Shown one piece after another: positions 17,916 to 26,693 of a DNA stretch of 50,306 nucleotides (the first letter of the stretch is position 1; each line of letters begins with the position of its first letter). The DNA lies in NCBI GenBank assembly GCA_002009975.1, contig MTLP01000005.1:1-50306 (forward strand). Reading direction: 5' to 3'. The notes beneath the pieces are model-generated. The model ran no database searches. It was given only the letters and a program-made list of their open reading frames with translations, and had not been told where the DNA came from. Origin of the DNA: Thermococcus sp. JdFR-02. GTDB lineage: Archaea; Methanobacteriota_B; Thermococci; Thermococcales; Thermococcaceae. The position numbers and the translations under genes are program-made.

Positions 17916-18917
17916 TTGTTAATTTTTTGGTGGTCCCGCGGCCCGGATTTGAACCGGGGACCTGCGGATCTACAGAGCACAAATTCTCCAAACAAAGGTG
18001 ACAAACTCACTTACACACCAGTCAGAGAACAATTTATCCGGTATCTCGCTAACAGACTCAGTAAAAGTACTGCTGACGACTACATTAAGTACTTGGACAA
18101 ATACTTTGGTGATGCTGTCGTCAGGAGTCCAGAAGAATTGAAGCAACTCCTCGCCAAAGCAGATAATGGGAAACCTGGAAGGTGGAATTGGTTGATTAAT
18201 GCAATTCGTGTTTTGATACGCTTTCACTTGGAGACTGGAAGAATTACTCAGGATTTTGCATTCCAACTGAAGCGGGTCTTGAAAGAAAGACCAGAAGGTG
18301 TAGATGTGCGGTTGCCTAGCGACGAAGAAGTTAGACAAGCTCTTTCCAAAGTTGAAGACGAGAGGATGCTGGTTGTCGGGTTGCTCTGTTTGTTTGGTGG
18401 TATCAGAGTAAAAGAAGCTATCAAACTAGTCAATGAGTTTGACAGGAGCAAGCTTCACATAGAAGACGGAATAGCCTACTATGAGTTGGGTTGGAGGAGA
18501 AAGAGCAAGATATCCTACTATGTCTTCATGCCAATTGAGTTAGCGGAAAGGTTAAGGAGATTCAGAGTGACGTATGATGGAGTTGGAGGATACTTTGTTA
18601 AGCGAGGTCTCCCACTGAAATACGCAAGAAAATGGTTCATAAACAAGATGATAGAAAGCGGTGTTCAGGAGAGTGTTGTGAAGTTCATGATAGGTCATAG
18701 CCAAGGTGGTGACATCTTAGCAACCCATTACATCAACCTCTTTCACCAGGCAAGAAAAGCTTACAAAGAGAATGTGGAGAGGCTAAAACAAGCCCTTGAT
18801 TTTCCCACCATTCTTGCCTCTTACAACCAGCACTCAATGACAAAAAACCGTGAAGAAACAAAGGTTACCAGTACTCCAATCCCCTCAAGAACTCTAGTTG
18901 CCTATCAATGTCCCTGA
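17916..18917 (+). CDS. SSV-type integrase, C-terminal part (int(C)) with tyrosine recombinase domain
   Basis: The element-specific part starts at 17976 (313 residues); upstream codons come from attL. Catalytic residues of archaeal tyrosine recombinases are visible: Arg I in LFGGIRVKEAI, Lys in WRRKSKISYY, the KxxR box as KYARKWF (in place of HxxR), GHSQGGD, and the nucleophile Tyr in ATHYINL. An N-terminal core-binding (SAM-like) domain covers YLANRLSKSTADDYIKYL. Integration has cut it from its promoter and first 57 codons, so it should be silent until excision. The last 53 bp overlap a convergent gene. Confidence 0.92.
   Translation: MLIFWWSRGPDLNRGPADLQSTNSPNKGDKLTYTPVREQFIRYLANRLSKSTADDYIKYLDKYFGDAVVRSPEELKQLLAKADNGKPGRWNWLINAIRVLIRFHLETGRITQDFAFQLKRVLKERPEGVDVRLPSDEEVRQALSKVEDERMLVVGLLCLFGGIRVKEAIKLVNEFDRSKLHIEDGIAYYELGWRRKSKISYYVFMPIELAERLRRFRVTYDGVGGYFVKRGLPLKYARKWFINKMIESGVQESVVKFMIGHSQGGDILATHYINLFHQARKAYKENVERLKQALDFPTILASYNQHSMTKNREETKVTSTPIPSRTLVAYQCP
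17925..17975 (-). repeat. attL: 51-bp direct repeat, copy of the 3' half of tRNA-Tyr
   Basis: The 51 bp are identical to 26457-26507. They include the 3' 45 nt of tRNA-Tyr (17931-17975, CCA to anticodon loop) but no 5' half, so this is a tRNA fragment and not a gene. The repeat marks the left edge of the integrated element and encodes residues in the split integrase reading frame on the plus strand. Confidence 0.93.
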
Positions 18918-19083
18918 TTTCAGCGTCGATAAATTTTATTTCCTGAATAAGCCTCCTCCTCTCCTCTAGCAGTTTTTGCCTCTGTTTTTCCAGTTTTTCA
19001 ATCTTTCTGAAGTATGCACTGGTCTGGCGGACTTCATCAAGAGCACTTCTGGCAACTTTCCTCCCAAAGAGTAATCTCAACAT
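18865..19083 (-). CDS. Small coiled-coil protein of the integrated element
   Basis: The 72-residue protein starts at ATG 19083, with GGTGG just upstream. About residues 25-65 are a charged heptad-like region (KIEKLEKQRQKLLEERRRL and the following segment) expected to form a coiled coil. There is no signal peptide and no enzymatic motif. It lies directly downstream of the small membrane protein on the same strand, 40 bp away, suggesting one transcript and perhaps one function, for example a membrane-associated scaffold. The function is unknown. Confidence 0.7.
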   Translation of the reverse strand: MLRLLFGRKVARSALDEVRQTSAYFRKIEKLEKQRQKLLEERRRLIQEIKFIDAEIRDIDRQLEFLRGLEYW

Positions 19084-19123
19084 CTTGACCACCTAAAAAA
19101 GAAAGTTTCAAGGGGAGAGGAGT

Positions 19124-19796: not shown

Positions 19797-19967
19797 ATGG
19801 GGAAGGAAGAAGAAATCAAACGACTTGTAAGGGACTTGAAAACCAACCTCTACAGTATCCGAGCGACAAAGGTGTCAAAGTACTGGAAAGGTGTTGGAAG
19901 GAATGTCGAGGAGGCTATCAACCTTGTTGAGACCTTAGAGAAAGAGTTAGGAGGTGAGAACAAATGA
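19797..19967 (+). CDS. 56-residue hypothetical protein, first gene of the element's rightward operon
   Basis: ATG 19797 follows GGCGGAGGTG and reads MGKEEEIKRLVRDLKTNLYS onward to GGENK, then TGA at 19965-19967. The last codons overlap the ATG of the next gene (ATGA), so the two are translationally coupled. The protein is charged and probably all helical, with no motif I recognise. Its position at the head of the operon next to the inverted-repeat region would suit a DNA-binding or copy-control protein, but that is only positional. Confidence 0.7.
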   Translation: MGKEEEIKRLVRDLKTNLYSIRATKVSKYWKGVGRNVEEAINLVETLEKELGGENK

Positions 19968-20203
19968 AGCCAAGATTACAGTTCGAGAAGTACCTAGGAG
20001 CCAAGGTCAGCATAAAAATGGATGATGGCAATGTGTTTGTTGGCACTCTTGAGAATGAGGATTGGCAATTCTTGCACCTCACTAATTGCAAAGTGAAGAC
20101 ACCCAAAAGCAGAAAATTCACCAGCAGACCTGCTGCAGTGGTGAGAAAGTTGTTCATACAGAACTTGGTTGTCCTTGAAGATTCAAGAGGTGAGGCGAGA
20201 TGA
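19964..20203 (+). CDS. LSm/Sm-like protein 1 of the integrated element
   Basis: The 79-residue protein has the Sm-fold pattern. Sm1-like strands are GAKVSIKMDDGNVFVGTLEN with a following NEDWQFLHLTNC, and then a basic loop and a final strand pair (RKLFIQNLVVLE) equivalent to Sm2. Sm proteins form rings that bind RNA. The start ATG overlaps the preceding stop, and its own stop overlaps the next start (ATGA), so three genes are coupled. The family assignment comes from pattern only and needs profile search. An unrelated small beta-barrel remains possible. Confidence 0.65.
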   Translation: MKPRLQFEKYLGAKVSIKMDDGNVFVGTLENEDWQFLHLTNCKVKTPKSRKFTSRPAAVVRKLFIQNLVVLEDSRGEAR

Positions 20204-20463
20204 GCACTAACTGGGCTGAGTTTAGCCACTTCTGGCGAAAGAAAGTCATTGTCATGGACAGGTCTAAGAAAACCACGTATGTTGGGAAACTTGTTCAGGA
20301 GACCAATCAGTTTATCACACTTAAGGACGCTAAGGTTGTAGTTAACGGCAGGGCGAAGGAGTCAGAATATCTAGCAATTTGGAAAGGAAGAATTGCTGTT
20401 ATTAAGTTGGCAGAACAACAACCAGGAGAAGGTGAGGACAATGCAAACACCAAAAATCCCTAA
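20200..20463 (+). CDS. LSm/Sm-like protein 2 of the integrated element
   Basis: The 87-residue protein repeats the pattern of its upstream neighbour: FWRKKVIVMDRSKKTTYVGKL as the first strands, TNQFITLKDAKV as the third, and YLAIWKGRIAVIKL as the closing pair, then a disordered acidic tail (EQQPGEGEDNANTKNP). It is divergent in sequence from protein 1, so the two are not a recent duplication. The start ATG overlaps the preceding stop. The stop lies inside the next gene's 5' end. Role unknown; RNA binding is the family expectation. Confidence 0.6.
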   Translation: MSTNWAEFSHFWRKKVIVMDRSKKTTYVGKLVQETNQFITLKDAKVVVNGRAKESEYLAIWKGRIAVIKLAEQQPGEGEDNANTKNP

Positions 20464-20809
20464 ACCTGAAGGCCCGTATTACTCTCCACGGGAAATAGCC
20501 AAGATTCTTGGCACTTCGGTTGACGCCATTTACGTCTGGATAGAACAGGGGAGAGTTGCAACACTGAAAATACACTATGGGATGAGAGTGTATCATTGGA
20601 TACCGAAAGAAGAAGTTAAAAGGCTCAAGAAGGAGAAACCTCCAAAAGACAGAGTGTTAAGTACTCGTGAAGCCGCTGAAATTCTTGGCGTTAGACAGGA
20701 AGACGTGGTGCAGCTTATTCATTCCGGCAAACTCAGAGGCATCAAAGTAGGATTGTACTGGAAGATACCTGAAAGTGAAGTCTTGAGGTTGAAACAAACA
20801 GAGGGATAA
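20441..20809 (+). CDS. Double excisionase/MerR-type helix-turn-helix protein
   Basis: The start is ATG 20441 with GGTGAGGAC upstream, overlapping the end of the LSm-like gene. The 122 residues contain two tandem winged-helix domains of the excisionase (HTH_17/MerR-like) type. One is YYSPREIAKILGTSVDAIYV with VYHWIPKEEVKRL; the other is VLSTREAAEILGVRQEDVVQ with YWKIPESEVLRL. Such domains bind DNA as recombination directionality factors or regulators. With two more genes of this type nearby the element devotes unusual space to them. Confidence 0.85.
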   Translation: MQTPKIPKPEGPYYSPREIAKILGTSVDAIYVWIEQGRVATLKIHYGMRVYHWIPKEEVKRLKKEKPPKDRVLSTREAAEILGVRQEDVVQLIHSGKLRGIKVGLYWKIPESEVLRLKQTEG

Positions 20810-20843
20810 GCACTTGAAAAAGAAAAGTTGGAGGGAGACAGAC

Positions 20844-21113
20844 ATGGCAGCACTCCTCTACGCCTTTCAAGGAAATGAGATTGCCATAGAGTATGACCCC
20901 AATAAGATGTTTGCCTTTCCACATACAAAGGCATTTTGGTACACTCCCGAAATCCCAGAAACCGACAGATTGTCCTGTTCCTCTCAAAAGCCCACAGCAT
21001 CTCCCTTCTTTGGGTTTTTGAAAAACAACAAGGAGACAGGAGGACTTGTGGAACAACCGGTGAACATGGCTTCTTTTTCTACCCCTTTGTTTTCTTGCCA
21101 GATTTTGGTATGA
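20844..21113 (+). CDS. Hypothetical protein, possibly frameshifted
   Basis: ATG 20844 follows GGAGGGAGA and opens an 89-residue frame (MAALLYAFQGNEIAIEYDPN at the start) with no recognised domain. From about 20975 on, a different frame, shifted by -1 and open to 21154, looks more protein-like (QIVLFLSKAHSISLLWVFEK, then EHGFFFYPFVFLPDFG). The residues in the annotated frame are Ser/Pro/Cys-rich instead. This suggests a frameshift, real or from sequencing, and a native protein of about 103 residues ending at 21154. I keep the unshifted frame as written. Confidence 0.5.
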   Translation: MAALLYAFQGNEIAIEYDPNKMFAFPHTKAFWYTPEIPETDRLSCSSQKPTASPFFGFLKNNKETGGLVEQPVNMASFSTPLFSCQILV

Positions 21114-21168
21114 ACAACCAGACCTCTACAGTTAAGATTTTGGAAGTTTGCTAAGGGTGGTGGTGAAG

Positions 21169-21390
21169 ATGGGGAGGCAGTATTTCACCATTAAAGAGTT
21201 CGCCAAAGCGTTCATGACGTCTGAAGGAGAAGTACTATGGGCAATCACATGGGGCAAAATCAAGGCAGAGAAAGTGGATGGTAAGCTCATGATTCCGAGG
21301 AGCGAGATACTCAGATTACTAAGAAAGGTGAATCCCAACCTAACTGACAAAGACTTGGACATCTGGGAAGAAGCAAACTTTGGGAAATGA
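21169..21390 (+). CDS. Small excisionase-type DNA-binding protein
   Basis: The start is ATG 21169, after GGTGGTGGTG. The 73 residues form one winged-helix domain of the excisionase type: YFTIKEFAKAFMTSEGEVLW as the recognition part and GKLMIPRSEILRLL as the wing and last helix, with a short acidic tail. It could regulate transcription of the element or act as the directionality factor for excision. It is related in pattern to the proteins at 20441-20809 and 21490-21714. Confidence 0.75.
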   Translation: MGRQYFTIKEFAKAFMTSEGEVLWAITWGKIKAEKVDGKLMIPRSEILRLLRKVNPNLTDKDLDIWEEANFGK

Positions 21391-21489
21391 TAAGCCTCTC
21401 CTGTTCTTTCTTTTTCTTGGTAGGCTGGTGAAAACACTCCAAAAAGTATATGTAATGAGATAAAGAGATAAAGATTTGAGGGAGGAAGC

Positions 21490-21714
21490 ATGCAGAAGAA
21501 GGAGTACTATACAACTGGAGATGTTGCAAGATTGTCAGGCTACCACTACACTACTGTCCAGCTTTGGATTCAAACAGGAAAGATAGAAGCAAAGAAAATC
21601 GGTGGCTGGTGGAGAATACCCAGAAGTGAAGTTATCAAGATTCTCAAAGAGAAACTTGGCTTAACTAATGAGGAAGTCAAAAAGCTCCTAGGTCAAGAGG
21701 AAGTAAAAAACTAA
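21490..21714 (+). CDS. Small excisionase-type DNA-binding protein
   Basis: The 74-residue protein has the classic excisionase-like fold in sequence: YYTTGDVARLSGYHYTTVQL, WIQTGKIEAKKIGGWWRIPR and SEVIKILKEKLG, then a short helical tail. GAGGGAGGAAGC precedes the ATG. It is preceded by 99 bp without a gene that contains AAAAGTATATGTAATG (about 21443), which could supply a local promoter, so it may be expressed separately. It is the best match of the four domains to the Xis/HTH_17 profile. Confidence 0.82.
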   Translation: MQKKEYYTTGDVARLSGYHYTTVQLWIQTGKIEAKKIGGWWRIPRSEVIKILKEKLGLTNEEVKKLLGQEEVKN

Positions 21715-21734
21715 AACAGAAAAGGTGAGACCAG

Positions 21735-23591
21735 ATGACCAAGAGCACAGCCCCCAATAGTGGATATGCTGGAACTCCTACAAAGGGTTTATGGAGGGTT
21801 CCGGTAACTGTCTACCGAGCACCAGCAGGTTCAGGGAAAACTACTTACATGGCAAGGCAAGTGAAAGAATGGTGGAAGAAGAATCCAATAAACCGGAAAA
21901 TTGTACTCATCCTTTCTGATAATCACAAAAGTCTTGAAGAAGTTGAGAGGAAACTAATTGAAGCTGGTATTGACCCTAAGCTCATTTTCCACTACTATGG
22001 ACACTCCCAACTGTGCCCTGTTGTTCACTTGAAAAACTTCAGACCAGTCATTGCTTGTAGCATCTGCGAGAAGTTCTATCCGCAAACTGCCCAAAACTGC
22101 CTGTACAAAGAGAGAGTTGAGAAGTTTAGGAGAGGTCACTACAAAATCCTCATAGCTCCTTTTGAAGTCATAAACAACAGAACCTTCAGAGAGATTCAGG
22201 ACAGAATAGCATTCATCTGGATTGAAGAAGACCCTTTCAAAACAAGACCACTGAAAGAGCCAACACCTCAAGTAATTGCAGGGCAATCAAAAATCTACGG
22301 CAGAATGCTTACAGAAGATGACTACATCAACAGAGCTACTGAAATTGAAAAGAAGATAGTGGAAATTTTGTTTCCTTCCAATCTTGACCCTCAAGAAGTA
22401 CCTGCTAGAGCAGTCCTCTTAGCTCAAATCTTCAATCCATCACCAAGAGAGATAGGGTACTACTACAAAATGAAACAAGCAGGTCTTAGTACTTGGCTAA
22501 TCAAACAGTGGTACATCCTTGACGTCATTGAAATTGCAAAATCAAACCAAGCTCCAATCTACATAACTAACGCTTCATTTGACATGAACAAGTGGCTAAA
22601 TGTAGATGTTATTTACTTTGCCATTCATGGAGAGCGCCTCCCAGTAAACCTCACAATTGACAACACTATTTTCTTTAATCCTAGCCCATCTCCCAACATG
22701 ATTGTAAGACTACATTTTGAGGCTTGGTATCCTAGAAACTCCTTCAACAACAGAAGAACAGTGAAGGAAATTGCAAAAGAGATAGTGATTCTTGCTAGTA
22801 AGTTCAAACAGCCAGTTATTCCGGTTATCACTTTCAAGACTCTTGCTGATACCCTGAAAGCTGAGATAGAGAATGAAATCTCCAAGATAAGAATGAAGGA
22901 AGGCAAAGAACTCAAACACTACAATGCTGAGGTCAAGGTCATGACATTTGGAAGTTTGAAGACAAGAAATGACTTTGAAGACTACAAAGTTGGATTCATT
23001 GTCGGCAGTTACAACATTGGGAAAGAGAGCTTGAAAAAAGCGATTGAAAAAGAGCGTGGTCCAGTATTCGATGATAAGGACTTTGAAACAACAAAAGTGC
23101 CAGGACTTGGTTACATCTACACGAATGCTGAGATTGAGGAATTCAGACAAGCGGAAGAAGATGAGGAGCAGTATCAAGCAATCATGAGGTTCAGACCTAA
23201 GAAAAAGCCTACTCTTGTTTTCATCTGGGGCAGAGTTCCCGAGAGAGCTATAAAAGAGTTCAACAGGTATGTCGAAGAAGATAGTGCACTAACTTTCATC
23301 ACAACTTGGCTCAGCCCAAGAAAAAGAAAACTCCTCAAACCCTACATCACAGAATTCACACTGGATGACTTGGTGAAAGTTGGTGAGGCTTATCTCCTCG
23401 ACAGGAAAAACAAAGGGGCAAAGAAAGTTGCAGTTTCAGAGGTCAGGAAATTCTTGGTCAGGCACTTCAAGGTTGACAACAAGAAAATCAACAGAGCTAT
23501 GAGAACACTGAAAGAGAAGTATAGGGTAGAGCAGGTCAAGAAAGGAAAAACTTACAAGGAGTTTTTTGACCTCTCCGACTCAAAGAATTAG
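21735..23591 (+). CDS. Large P-loop protein, candidate Fe-S helicase or replication protein
   Basis: The 618-residue protein has a Walker A motif (RAPAGSGKTTYMA, residues 28-40) and a probable Walker B (IAFIWIEEDPF, near 158-168). Between them are four cysteines, C94, C108, C111 and C122. The 13- and 2-residue spacing of the first three resembles the Fe-S cysteines of XPD-type helicases. A charged central part and a C-terminal winged-helix-like region (EVRKFLVRHFKVDNKKINRA) follow. It is the largest gene of the element, so a replication role is the natural guess. Family membership is uncertain. Confidence 0.65.
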   Translation: MTKSTAPNSGYAGTPTKGLWRVPVTVYRAPAGSGKTTYMARQVKEWWKKNPINRKIVLILSDNHKSLEEVERKLIEAGIDPKLIFHYYGHSQLCPVVHLKNFRPVIACSICEKFYPQTAQNCLYKERVEKFRRGHYKILIAPFEVINNRTFREIQDRIAFIWIEEDPFKTRPLKEPTPQVIAGQSKIYGRMLTEDDYINRATEIEKKIVEILFPSNLDPQEVPARAVLLAQIFNPSPREIGYYYKMKQAGLSTWLIKQWYILDVIEIAKSNQAPIYITNASFDMNKWLNVDVIYFAIHGERLPVNLTIDNTIFFNPSPSPNMIVRLHFEAWYPRNSFNNRRTVKEIAKEIVILASKFKQPVIPVITFKTLADTLKAEIENEISKIRMKEGKELKHYNAEVKVMTFGSLKTRNDFEDYKVGFIVGSYNIGKESLKKAIEKERGPVFDDKDFETTKVPGLGYIYTNAEIEEFRQAEEDEEQYQAIMRFRPKKKPTLVFIWGRVPERAIKEFNRYVEEDSALTFITTWLSPRKRKLLKPYITEFTLDDLVKVGEAYLLDRKNKGAKKVAVSEVRKFLVRHFKVDNKKINRAMRTLKEKYRVEQVKKGKTYKEFFDLSDSKN

Positions 23592-23785
23592 CAATATGCG
23601 TTAATCTCTTCTATCTACCGAGTTCAACTTGATTGCTTGGTTTTCTGGCAACTTTGTTTCCAAAGATGCTTAAAATAATAATAATGTAACAACAATCTTT
23701 TTCGTTGTCCTCCACCACTCCTAGCATACTCCTTCTTTTCCTAGAAAGAAGAGATTTCCTCCTGACCTAACGCATATTGCTAATT
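23587..23785. repeat. 18-bp perfect inverted repeat enclosing 163 bp, with an inner inverted repeat
   Basis: AATTAGCAATATGCGTTA at 23587-23604 is matched by its reverse complement at 23768-23785. Immediately inside, ATCTCTTCT (23605-23613) is matched by AGAAGAGAT (23747-23755). The interior has an AATAATAATAAT run near 23671 and a pyrimidine-rich plus strand. The left arm overlaps the stop of the large P-loop gene. It may be an origin, a partition or resolution site, or a structured RNA; nothing in it codes convincingly. Confidence 0.6.
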
Positions 23786-24046
23786 TTTTGCCCTATACTC
23801 CTCACACAGAAAACTCACAAACATAATTTTCGTCAGTGAGGTGGAAAGCTGTGGGGGATGTTGAAATCCTTTCCAAACTTCCGACTTTGATTTCAACAAG
23901 ACTCTATTATTATATAGTATGGCAGAAATCAAACATACCAGAAAATAGCCTCCTCTTCACAAGCACCAAGAAAACTTCCGCACTGACGAATATTATGTTT
24001 TGCCAAACTGTAGTCCTGATAAGAAAGCTGTTGGGAGGTGGTTTGT
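23786..24046. other. Stretch without a convincing gene
   Basis: Together with the inverted-repeat region this makes about 455 bp between the large P-loop gene and the third LSm-like gene. A 72-codon frame from GTG 23836 exists but has no ribosome binding site, looks un-protein-like and overlaps the next gene's start region. A TATTATATAG segment at about 23907-23916 could be a TATA box, which would place a start of transcription near 23940 for the LSm-like gene. Confidence 0.4.
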
Positions 24047-24241
24047 TTGTTTGACTACTTGATAAACAGTTTAGTTGGGAAGAAAGTTCTTATTAAGACT
24101 ATCAAAGACATCACTATCAAGGGTGTCCTCAGAGACTACTCTCCAGATTTCCTTTGGATTCAGGATGCAGTGATGGGAGGAGTTTATGTCGGAACTGTCT
24201 TTGTGCCAAGAAACACAGTTATTGACATTCTTCCAGTCTGA
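24047..24241 (+). CDS. LSm/Sm-like protein 3 of the integrated element
   Basis: I start at TTG 24047, since GGGAGGTGG lies 6-14 bp upstream and a GTG at 24038 would overlap it. The 64 residues again fit the Sm fold: LVGKKVLIKTIKDITIKGVL as the first strands, SPDFLWIQDAVMGG as strand 3, and VPRNTVIDILPV as the closing pair. It lies apart from the other two LSm-like genes, after a non-coding region. The three share the fold pattern but little sequence. Confidence 0.6.
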   Translation: MFDYLINSLVGKKVLIKTIKDITIKGVLRDYSPDFLWIQDAVMGGVYVGTVFVPRNTVIDILPV

Positions 24242-24399
24242 TTCTCTTTTGTTCCACTCTTCCAATCTCAGCTGATGCTTTCTTTCCTCAGTTTTCCCCA
24301 CATTTTCTCCTGTTTTCACTCTACCAGTAATCTACCCTCTCCCCCTCCAAAAAGTAGATGTAGAACTTCCAATTAACAATTTTACACAGAGGGAGAGGG

Positions 24400-25326
24400 G
24401 TGAAGATTGTGGGCTTGTCTCTGCTCTCAGGTAAAGAGCTTCTGGCAAAAAACGGAGGAGAATTACTTGACCGCTTTCTCAGCAGAAACCCAGCATACGG
24501 TGGTAGACTTGGCATGATTACAGGAGAGCAAGGAAGTGGAAAAACCTCCTTGCAACTACTCTTTGCCAAGAACTTTGTTGGTGGGGAGTATGTCATCTGG
24601 AGAGGCAGATTCTTGGCACAGTGGCATAAGTTACCAAACTGGGGAAGCAAGGTAAGGATACTTGTTCACAAGGACGACAGTATAGAATTCTTGAAGTTAC
24701 CTTATGACGGTAGTAGGTCTGAAGTACTTAACATTCCAGTGGTCAGATATGAGAGTGCCAGAGATGTACTGAAGAAGTTAGACAAGAACTACATTAATGT
24801 GATTTACGAACCACCTGGCTACAGAATTTCACAAGAGTTGGTGGAAGATGTCAAAGAGAGGACAGGATTAGTAATCTCGCCCGACAAACTTGAGGAGGAG
24901 AAGCCTGCGTTCTTTTGGTTCGAGATGTTATACCGTCTGCTCACCAGAGAAGACAGAGATTGGTACGCTGTTTTCATAGATGAGGTGGACGACATTTTCC
25001 CAGAGACACCGTCGGGCCCTCAATTCGCCCTCCAAGCGTGGGTGAAAGACATACTCAAAGACCTGAGGAAGGCGTTGGTGTCGCTGATAGTTTCAACTCA
25101 CACAATCCGCAATGTTGACTGGAGGATTCGCACTAAGATACCGACATATATTTACCTGAGAGGAGCAGAGGTGAGGCCGGGGTCTAAAATAAAACAACAG
25201 TATGTCCTCCTCATGGACCCTGGGTATGCTTACATTGAGTGGGGGCGATATGGTGTATTCAAATTCAACTATCTTCCCCAACCAAAATACGACATCCTAG
25301 TACGGAGAGGTAAGAAGGAGGGGTGA
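24400..25326 (+). CDS. HerA/FtsK/Zot-like P-loop ATPase of the integrated element
   Basis: The 308-residue protein starts at GTG 24400 after GAGGGAGAGG. The Walker A motif is GEQGSGKTS (42-50) and Walker B is VFIDEVDDIFPE (191-202), followed by a sensor-like VSLIVSTHTIRN. Conserved acid after the Walker B aspartate and the Thr/Gln sensor suit the HerA/FtsK superfamily, including the Zot-type morphogenesis ATPases of filamentous phages. Such proteins move DNA or help assemble virions at membranes. No membrane segment is obvious. The assignment within the superfamily is open. Confidence 0.7.
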   Translation: MKIVGLSLLSGKELLAKNGGELLDRFLSRNPAYGGRLGMITGEQGSGKTSLQLLFAKNFVGGEYVIWRGRFLAQWHKLPNWGSKVRILVHKDDSIEFLKLPYDGSRSEVLNIPVVRYESARDVLKKLDKNYINVIYEPPGYRISQELVEDVKERTGLVISPDKLEEEKPAFFWFEMLYRLLTREDRDWYAVFIDEVDDIFPETPSGPQFALQAWVKDILKDLRKALVSLIVSTHTIRNVDWRIRTKIPTYIYLRGAEVRPGSKIKQQYVLLMDPGYAYIEWGRYGVFKFNYLPQPKYDILVRRGKKEG

Positions 25327-25515: not shown

Positions 25516-25569
25516 GTGTCAAAGAAGAATACTACAGGTGACAACCTGTTTTTCTGGGAGGTGTTAAGG

Positions 25570-26217
25570 GTGGCAAGATGGGTTCAGGTCTTGAAGGATG
25601 GAGACTGGGCAATGGTACGTGCGGAAGCCATAGATAGTTTTTGGATTACTGAGCGCAAGGATGAAAAGGTTGTCAACTTTGATGTCAATGGTCAGACCTA
25701 CTATCTCCTTTACCCAAGGAAGCGTCTTGTTCCAGACATTTCCGACATTCGCAAGTGGCTTGATGTCGACTATGATGGGGTCTTGACACTCTGGCACTTC
25801 TATGTACTCCCAACACGGTATGATGTCACAGAATTTGTTGTTTCCGTTGCTCTGACTGATTACCTCCACTCTTTCTCGAATTTCAAGAGCTTCAAGAATA
25901 GAGAAGTGGTGCGTCAGGGAGTTGAAGAAGCATTAGAGGAGATTTCGGAGAGAGGAGAAGCGCTAGATTTTGGCTTCACCTTGCCATTGTTTGGTCCAGG
26001 GTGGTGGGAAGATTTGACATTTCCGAAATCATTGCTCTTGGAAGAATGGAATGGTTTCAAACTTGTTTTGAAGTCACACTTTGTGCAAATTATCCCAAAA
26101 CTTCAAGGTGAGGAAAAAATCTCAGATATAGCAGACAGAATTGCCGGTACTATTGTTAACTACTACAACCTTGTTAACTTTGTGAAAAGGAAGTATCCAA
26201 AATTCTGGATTCTTTGA
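25570..26217 (+). CDS. Hypothetical protein, last complete gene of the element
   Basis: I start at GTG 25570 (215 residues) because GGGAGGTG lies just upstream and the TATA box at 25509-25517 rules out the GTG at 25516. The N-terminal third looks beta-rich (VQVLKDGDWAMVRAEAIDSF) and the rest mixed, with a helical segment VVRQGVEEALEEISERGEAL and a C-terminal helix. There is no signal peptide, membrane segment or motif I recognise. It has its own promoter, separate from the ATPase gene. Confidence 0.75.
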   Translation: MARWVQVLKDGDWAMVRAEAIDSFWITERKDEKVVNFDVNGQTYYLLYPRKRLVPDISDIRKWLDVDYDGVLTLWHFYVLPTRYDVTEFVVSVALTDYLHSFSNFKSFKNREVVRQGVEEALEEISERGEALDFGFTLPLFGPGWWEDLTFPKSLLLEEWNGFKLVLKSHFVQIIPKLQGEEKISDIADRIAGTIVNYYNLVNFVKRKYPKFWIL

Positions 26218-26336: not shown

Positions 26337-26693
26337 ATGGGTGTTGAATCCGGAAGGAAAACGACAATCTGGGTGAGTGTGGAGTTGAGGGAGGAGTTAC
26401 GGAAGATTGGCAGAATGGGAGAAACTTACGAGCAGGTTATCTGGCGTCTGCTAGAATTTTGGTGGTCCCGCGGCCCGGATTTGAACCGGGGACCTGCGGA
26501 TCTACAGTCCGCCGCCGCTCCCAGGCTAGGCTACCGCGGGACCCTACAGCCTAGCCCTCATGATGTAGTCATCGATGATGGATTTATAAACTTTTCCATA
26601 ACAAACTTCGCCTTCGCGAAGTTTGATCAAGGTTTGTGTATCATTTCAGAAACAGTCGTTTTTAGAGGTTTTTCTATTAAGGCGATATCTTAG
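26337..26693 (+). CDS. SSV-type integrase, N-terminal part (int(N)) with ribbon-helix-helix domain
   Basis: The element-derived part is 26337-26507, 57 codons. Residues 8-41 (KTTIWVSVELREELRKIG and following) match the ribbon-helix-helix pattern of VapB-type antitoxins: a short strand, two helices and a Gly turn. The attR sequence then encodes FWWSRGPDLNRGPADLQ, the same residues that begin int(C). Joined, the integrase has 370 residues. In the integrated state the frame reads on through antisense tRNA-Tyr to a stop at 26691-26693, so a 118-residue protein could still be made. Confidence 0.88.
   Translation: MGVESGRKTTIWVSVELREELRKIGRMGETYEQVIWRLLEFWWSRGPDLNRGPADLQSAAAPRLGYRGTLQPSPHDVVIDDGFINFSITNFAFAKFDQGLCIISETVVFRGFSIKAIS
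26457..26507 (-). repeat. attR: 51-bp direct repeat within tRNA-Tyr
   Basis: The repeat is identical to 17925-17975 and marks the right edge of the integrated element. Its 26463-26507 part is the 3' half of the functional tRNA-Tyr gene, so insertion restored an intact tRNA gene. On the plus strand the same bases are part of the integrase coding sequence. Confidence 0.93.
26463..26540 (-). tRNA. tRNA-Tyr (anticodon GTA)
   Basis: Acceptor arms CCCGCGG and CCGCGGG pair, giving the C1-G72 pair typical of archaeal tRNA-Tyr. The anticodon stem GCGGA/TCCGC encloses loop CTGTAGA (anticodon GTA). The T arm is CCCGG-TTCAAAT-CCGGG, and A plus encoded CCA end the gene. It has no intron. A TATA-like TTTATAAAT lies upstream on the minus strand near 26582-26590. 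It is the attachment gene of the integrated element. Confidence 0.95.

Follow-up and report, generated by a model that had tools for sequence, protein, structure and literature searches.

Sm-like genes are not new to archaeal mobile elements, since plasmid examples have been published. Sm/Hfq-like proteins were described for pP12-1, pCIR10, pIRI48 and pMETVU01, with homologues on methanococcal elements (Krupovic et al., 2013; PMC3543421), and an Hfq-like protein was noted in Pyrobaculum spherical virus (PMC3543421). In the pTN2-type plasmids, these genes adjoin helicase genes (PMC3543421). There is one such gene per plasmid, roughly 10–20 bp after the helicase gene, and the protein mostly has a zinc finger or a basic N-terminal extension. 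On the chromosomal side, Euryarchaeota have 1–3 LSm genes, in most cases just one (PMC10221803); the Thermococci genomes compared here mostly give one LSm match each, in line with that report. The Sm rings of archaea are, by published description, typically homo-oligomers (PMC12817955).

The stretch of DNA analyzed here (the window, 50,306 nt) includes an 8,532-bp element integrated in a tRNA-Tyr gene of a 2.36-Mb Thermococcaceae genome (Table 1). A Phage_integr_3 integrase is split by an att site in the tRNA gene, as in elements of the SSV (suicidal) integrase type, and by ORF and repeat coordinates the reading frame of its two parts is continuous through the 51-bp att sequence. The direct repeat, the split SSV-type integrase, and the tRNA-Tyr gene at the right end together indicate that the element is real. 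It carries the three small ORFs singled out in a preliminary description of this DNA, here called S1, S2, and S3, at the positions given there. As that description had it, all three are of the Sm type, and no other element examined has three. No close DNA relatives of the element were found in plasmid and phage collections, and the tRNA was the sole RNA matched in an Rfam scan.

Table 1. Features of the integrated element, with positions in the window.
Feature	Position	Strand	Remarks
int(C), C-terminal segment of a tyrosine integrase of SSV (suicidal) type	17916–18917	+	PF16795, E 9.6e-40
att repeat, left copy	17925–17975		51 bp, inside int(C); 100% identical to 26457–26507
75-aa coiled-coil protein	18865–19092	-	Counterparts in related loci L008 (9878–10105) and L009 (9470–9694)
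106-aa protein, two predicted transmembrane helices	19124–19444	-	83–88% identical in two relatives
p56, 56 aa, first gene of S1/S2 operon	19797–19967	+	98% identical in G088, 59% in G072
S1, Sm-fold protein, 79 aa	19964–20203	+	ATGA overlap with p56 stop; predicted model and relatives
S2, Sm-like protein, 87 aa	20200–20463	+	ATGA overlap with S1 stop; family membership by sequence
Double HTH_17 (MerR/excisionase-type) protein	20441–20809	+	PF12728, E 3.9e-19; ATG at 20441 inside the end of S2
HTH_17 protein	21148–21390	+	PF12728, E 2.9e-6
HTH_17 protein	21490–21714	+	PF12728, E 4.9e-12
618-aa P-loop protein, probable helicase/replication protein	21735–23591	+	Resembles a 606-aa protein of G072
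Two 23-nt inverted-repeat pairs, putative replication origin/regulatory region	23581–24000		23581–23603/23768–23790; 23819–23841/23978–24000
S3, 64-aa Sm-fold protein, start codon TTG	24047–24241	+	Predicted model
308-aa AAA-type ATPase, common to pTN2-family plasmids	24400–25326	+	phrog_22963, E 1e-90
233-aa protein, function not assigned	25516–26217	+	ORF; without a Pfam match at E<=0.1
int(N), N-terminal part of split integrase	26337–26540	+	Runs into tRNA
att repeat, right copy	26457–26507		Inside tRNA-Tyr gene 26463–26540, minus strand

Outside the Sm-type genes, the link to the pTN2-type family is the AAA ATPase, with an identity of 50.5% to that of pP12-1 and ~40% to those of pTN2 and pIRI48, over 96–98% of the protein. 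The family's helicase appears to be missing: a tblastn search with the 618-aa protein found nothing in the plasmid collection, pTN2, pP12-1, and pIRI48 included. Its Pfam matches are weak ones to helicase N-termini, with no strong family, and it shares 28% identity across 554 alignment columns with a 606-aa protein at the equivalent position in G072, an integrated element in another of the genomes. Its Walker A and probable Walker B motifs are separated by a segment with four cysteines (LCPVV...ACSIC...NC), shared with the G072 relative, which may hint at an iron-sulphur domain like that of XPD-type helicases. Searches of PHROG and Pfam with the 106-aa protein returned no match. Major capsid proteins of the alpha-helical-hairpin type are reported for spindle-shaped and bacilliform viruses of Thermococcales (PMC12934983, a 2026 preprint); the 106-aa protein could be such a capsid protein of a small virus, and the element may therefore be a provirus.

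That S1, S2, and S3 have the Sm fold, as the preliminary description proposed from the sequence, is very probable. Single-sequence scores against Pfam LSM were 20.1 bits for S1 and 16.2 bits for S3, both under the cut-off of 23.4; S2 gave no match, and the curated cut-off for the archaeal SmAP/LSm family (PF01423) was reached by none of the three. The main host SmAPs score 62–88 bits with the same model. The host itself has a single canonical SmAP, plus a divergent Sm-like gene adjoining a MobB-like gene; the divergent gene (locus L002, 1444–1677, in contig G000:C4) encodes 77 aa and at 22.3 bits is also just under the Pfam LSM cut-off.

Structures were predicted for S1 and S3 with AlphaFold2, the input alignment being limited to the three window proteins, and their best matches are Sm/LSm structures. 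S1 is predicted as a short helical turn and five strands (pLDDT 83.5, with the other four models at 63–78), S3 as a helix and five strands (pLDDT 91.7, all five models >90), so that both models have the N-terminal helix and five-stranded bent sheet of the Sm superfamily. In Foldseek, S1 had 193 matches at E<=0.001, with TM ~0.7–0.75. The top 50 are nearly all Sm/LSm chains, the exceptions coming from entries for NatC and for Edc3 decapping, and the best matches are single subunits of eukaryotic hetero-oligomeric Sm/LSm rings. S3 had 108 matches, to archaeal or eukaryotic Sm proteins, the best of them (TM 0.87) being 1i8f, the heptameric SmAP1 of P. aerophilum. The predicted fold is like that of the archaeal SmAP/LSm proteins generally (1i8f; P. 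abyssi Sm, 1m8v), and the C-terminal strand of S3 (VIDILPV) resembles VLAISPV of 1i8f. S2 is Sm-like by sequence homology to the S1 family.

A profile of nine S1/S2-family members (A2) agrees with this. Nine of its ten PDB matches are Sm proteins, the tenth being the uncharacterised protein 1ycy, and in a search with it the host SmAPs, the chromosomal Sm-like protein, and S3 outranked every decoy in a set of ~4,400, made up of random ORFs and shuffles. In hhalign, A2 scored 23.6 with the SmAPs, against a maximum of 16.3 for 100 shuffles. Comparisons of S3 with the SmAPs and the plasmid Hfq-like proteins were borderline, with 3 and 2 of 100 shuffles, respectively, reaching the score, while none of 100 did so for S3 against A2; the Sm case for S3 is thus made by its structure model and the alignment to A2. 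When a narrow SmAP profile built from Thermococci was used in the forward direction, S1–S3 were not separated from the decoys. Given the agreement of the reverse search with the structures, the limited breadth of that profile is taken to be the cause. It is highly improbable that S1–S3 belong to another small beta-barrel class such as the SH3-like C-terminal domain of RimP: three A2 members match RimP-type models weakly (best E 0.018) and S1 has a RimP match in NCBIfam (E 0.012), but S1 scores better with LSM (E 5e-4), the profile-to-PDB and Foldseek searches yield Sm/LSm proteins almost exclusively, and the helix (in S1 a short helical turn) and five strands of the predicted models are those of Sm proteins.

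The S1/S2 family was found in six genomes, with 94 Thermococcaceae genomes searched (115 in the phylum). S1 and S2 are paired in the same order in the window, G088, and G090, and there is a single family member in G072, in G067, and in G023 on plasmid pTI1 of Thermococcus indicus (NZ_CP040847), where the gene is annotated as encoding a hypothetical protein and scores 104 bits with A2. The single-copy relatives tie the two paralogues together, with hhalign probabilities of 97.8% to S2 and 97.3% to S1. As far as can be judged from sequence comparison, S1 and S2 are therefore the outcome of an old tandem duplication within one element-specific family. Here the preliminary description, in which the three proteins differ too strongly for a simple recent duplication, was right on the divergence and on the age, but a tandem duplication does lie behind S1 and S2. 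Both are shown by pairwise substitution rates among the three elements to be under purifying selection (dN 0.13–0.23 vs. dS 0.96–1.79).

The operon is similarly conserved. Its order is p56-S1-S2-HTH in the window and G088, S1-S2-HTH in G090, and p56-Sm-HTH in G072, where the single Sm gene has a 59% identical p56 homologue on one side and an HTH gene on the other. In the window the genes overlap throughout (ATGA for p56/S1 and S1/S2, 23 bp for S2/HTH). The C-terminal half of p56 has a weak Pfam match to Alba (E 0.021). Replication modules differ among the elements: D5-type in G088 and G090, the 618- and 606-aa proteins in the window and G072, and prim-pol in pTI1, which also differs from the window element in its one Sm copy and a RelE/ParE toxin-antitoxin pair. 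Across the related loci L008–L011, a Sm gene is common to all and the whole replication module is swapped; the integrase and ATPase are common to L008–L010. Retention of the Sm gene while replication modules change would suit a regulatory role. Viral contigs were searched with S1, S2, S3, the single-copy family, the ATPase, and the 106-aa protein, and no relative of any was present. A scan of genome contigs with S1 gave no match, and one with the ATPase gave a single locus (L053), with a 279-aa gene between helicase and ATPase and no Sm gene on the part of the locus read.

Like the Hfq-like genes of the pTN2-type plasmids (gp2 of pP12-1, pIRI48, and pCIR10; pMETVU01; ECE1 of M. jannaschii), those of the window are on a mobile element and encode an Sm/Hfq-like domain. 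S1/S2 and the plasmid proteins share a shortened loop before strand 3 and a K-x-x-I sequence in the same place in the second Sm motif; in the S1/S2 family this K-x-x-I (K62 and I65 of S1) is invariant in all nine members, as is a Phe before strand 3. An hhalign score of 24.2 between A2 and the plasmid Hfq-like proteins compares with a null maximum of 16.0 in 100 shuffles. Direct sequence similarity is weak, however (6.2–6.4 bits with the A2 profile), and S1 and S2 differ in being bare domains, paired, and part of a p56-HTH operon. The Hfq models PF17209, PF21979, and TIGR02383 match the pP12-1 and pIRI48 proteins and none of S1–S3. Given the published plasmid examples, one per plasmid, what looks new, as far as searched, is the different family, the conserved tandem pair, and the presence of three on one element. 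The words “Hfq” and “LSm” do not occur in the main text of the preprint cited above on Thermococcales viruses (PMC12934983), among whose contigs the present element may be.

The reading preferred here, with a probability of roughly 0.45 and so somewhat short of even odds, is that S1–S3 form Sm rings regulating the element's own transcripts or replication at the level of RNA. Gene overlaps are usually read as translational coupling, by which S1 and S2 would be produced jointly. They would then assemble into Sm rings, either homo-rings or a mixed S1/S2 ring, and bind element transcripts (regulatory or replication mRNA, or antisense RNA) through the Hfq-like K-x-x-I site, so setting expression and copy number. 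In ColE1, copy number is set by Hfq binding the antisense RNA I (PMC11012335). Counting against regulation at the RNA level, residues of the kind that bind RNA in the P. abyssi SmAP (Lys22, Asp35, Asn39, Arg63, Asp65; PMC10221803) are mostly missing. Counterparts of Asn39 and Asp65 are found in none of the three and those of Asp35 and Arg63 in S1 only, so that the full uridine-binding set of the archaeal SmAP/LSm proteins (Asp35, Asn39, Arg63, Asp65) is kept by none; in S3 both the R-G-D-N of SmAPs and the K-x-x-I are absent. Nor did the Rfam scan, in which the tRNA was the sole match, bring up an antisense RNA. The Sm fold is in any case no guarantee of RNA binding, since SmAP3 of S. acidocaldarius co-purified almost no RNA (PMC12817955).

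The same losses favor the main rival, in which S1 and S2 act chiefly on DNA or proteins, as a repressor, origin-binding, or nucleoid complex with p56 and the HTH protein, and have no RNA ligand. Their operon partners are of DNA-binding type (HTH_17, and p56 with its weak Alba match), the NatC and Edc3 entries among the Foldseek matches are Sm folds of protein complexes, and DNA binding was raised as a possibility for the plasmid Hfq-like proteins, bacterial Hfq being a nucleoid-associated protein that binds DNA (PMC3543421). The K-x-x-I motif, being that of Hfq-like proteins, weighs the other way, and a role directed at DNA or protein is considered somewhat unlikely.

The preliminary description suggested a hetero-oligomeric ring. 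In its strict form, an obligate ring of S1 and S2, perhaps with S3, built from duplicated paralogues and controlling element RNAs or replication, this seems doubtful. The mixed rings of eukaryotes need diverged paralogues that are made together, as S1 and S2 would be, but the element has at most three paralogues, and of low identity (14–27%). A three-way ring is further opposed by the location of S3 ~3.6 kb from S1/S2, after a non-coding leader of its own, and by its absence from relatives that carry S1 and S2.

The preliminary description also suggested hijacking of host RNA metabolism. Such hijacking, or interference, which might work by S1–S3 entering the SmAP rings of the host, is distinctly unlikely. 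The host has potential partners in its canonical SmAP and second Sm-like gene, and the predicted structure of S3 resembles SmAP1. The sequences of S1 and S2 are remote from that of the host SmAP, however, conservation as an operon of the element fits a function within it, and no precedent was found in the literature searched.

Under the preferred reading, regulation of the element's own RNAs, S3 would be a separately expressed, SmAP1-like ring acting beside the putative origin. Its TTG start is behind a GGAGGTG motif, while the longest ORF begins at a GTG at 24038. The inverted repeats just upstream follow the replication gene closely, as do long inverted repeats in the elements of G088 and G090 (L008, 5036–5231, and L009, 4823–5018), and the 136-nt spacing between their arms recurs among related elements. 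Together with a cumulative GC-skew minimum at 24388, this recurrence in position is suggestive of a replication origin adjoining S3. The repeats are present in one copy in the genome, so they are not a multi-copy insertion. S3 is like the plasmid Hfq-like genes in being downstream of a helicase gene; a correspondence to plasmid gp2 was rejected, as the helicases are unrelated and S3 is without K-x-x-I.

Neither the 115 genomes nor the viral contigs yielded a relative of S3, so its status as a coding sequence rests on the ORF, ribosome-binding site, and predicted fold. In the relatives, all of which lack S3, its place is taken by a gene of 246–292 aa. This, and the absence of the canonical RNA-binding residues, would be expected if S3 were a recent hitchhiker, a captured and decaying Sm gene without function, leaving only S1 and S2 to matter. 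An intact ORF with a ribosome-binding site and a fold predicted with high confidence in 5/5 AlphaFold2 models makes such decay improbable.

An overlapping pair of diverged Sm genes under purifying selection offers a small system in which to test two things: the origin of mixed Sm rings in prokaryotes, and the use of RNA regulation of the Hfq kind by plasmids or viruses of archaea. A mixed S1/S2 ring formed from duplicated paralogues would, if real, parallel what eukaryotic Sm/LSm rings became. If S1–S3 bind DNA instead, the known roles of the Sm fold would be widened.
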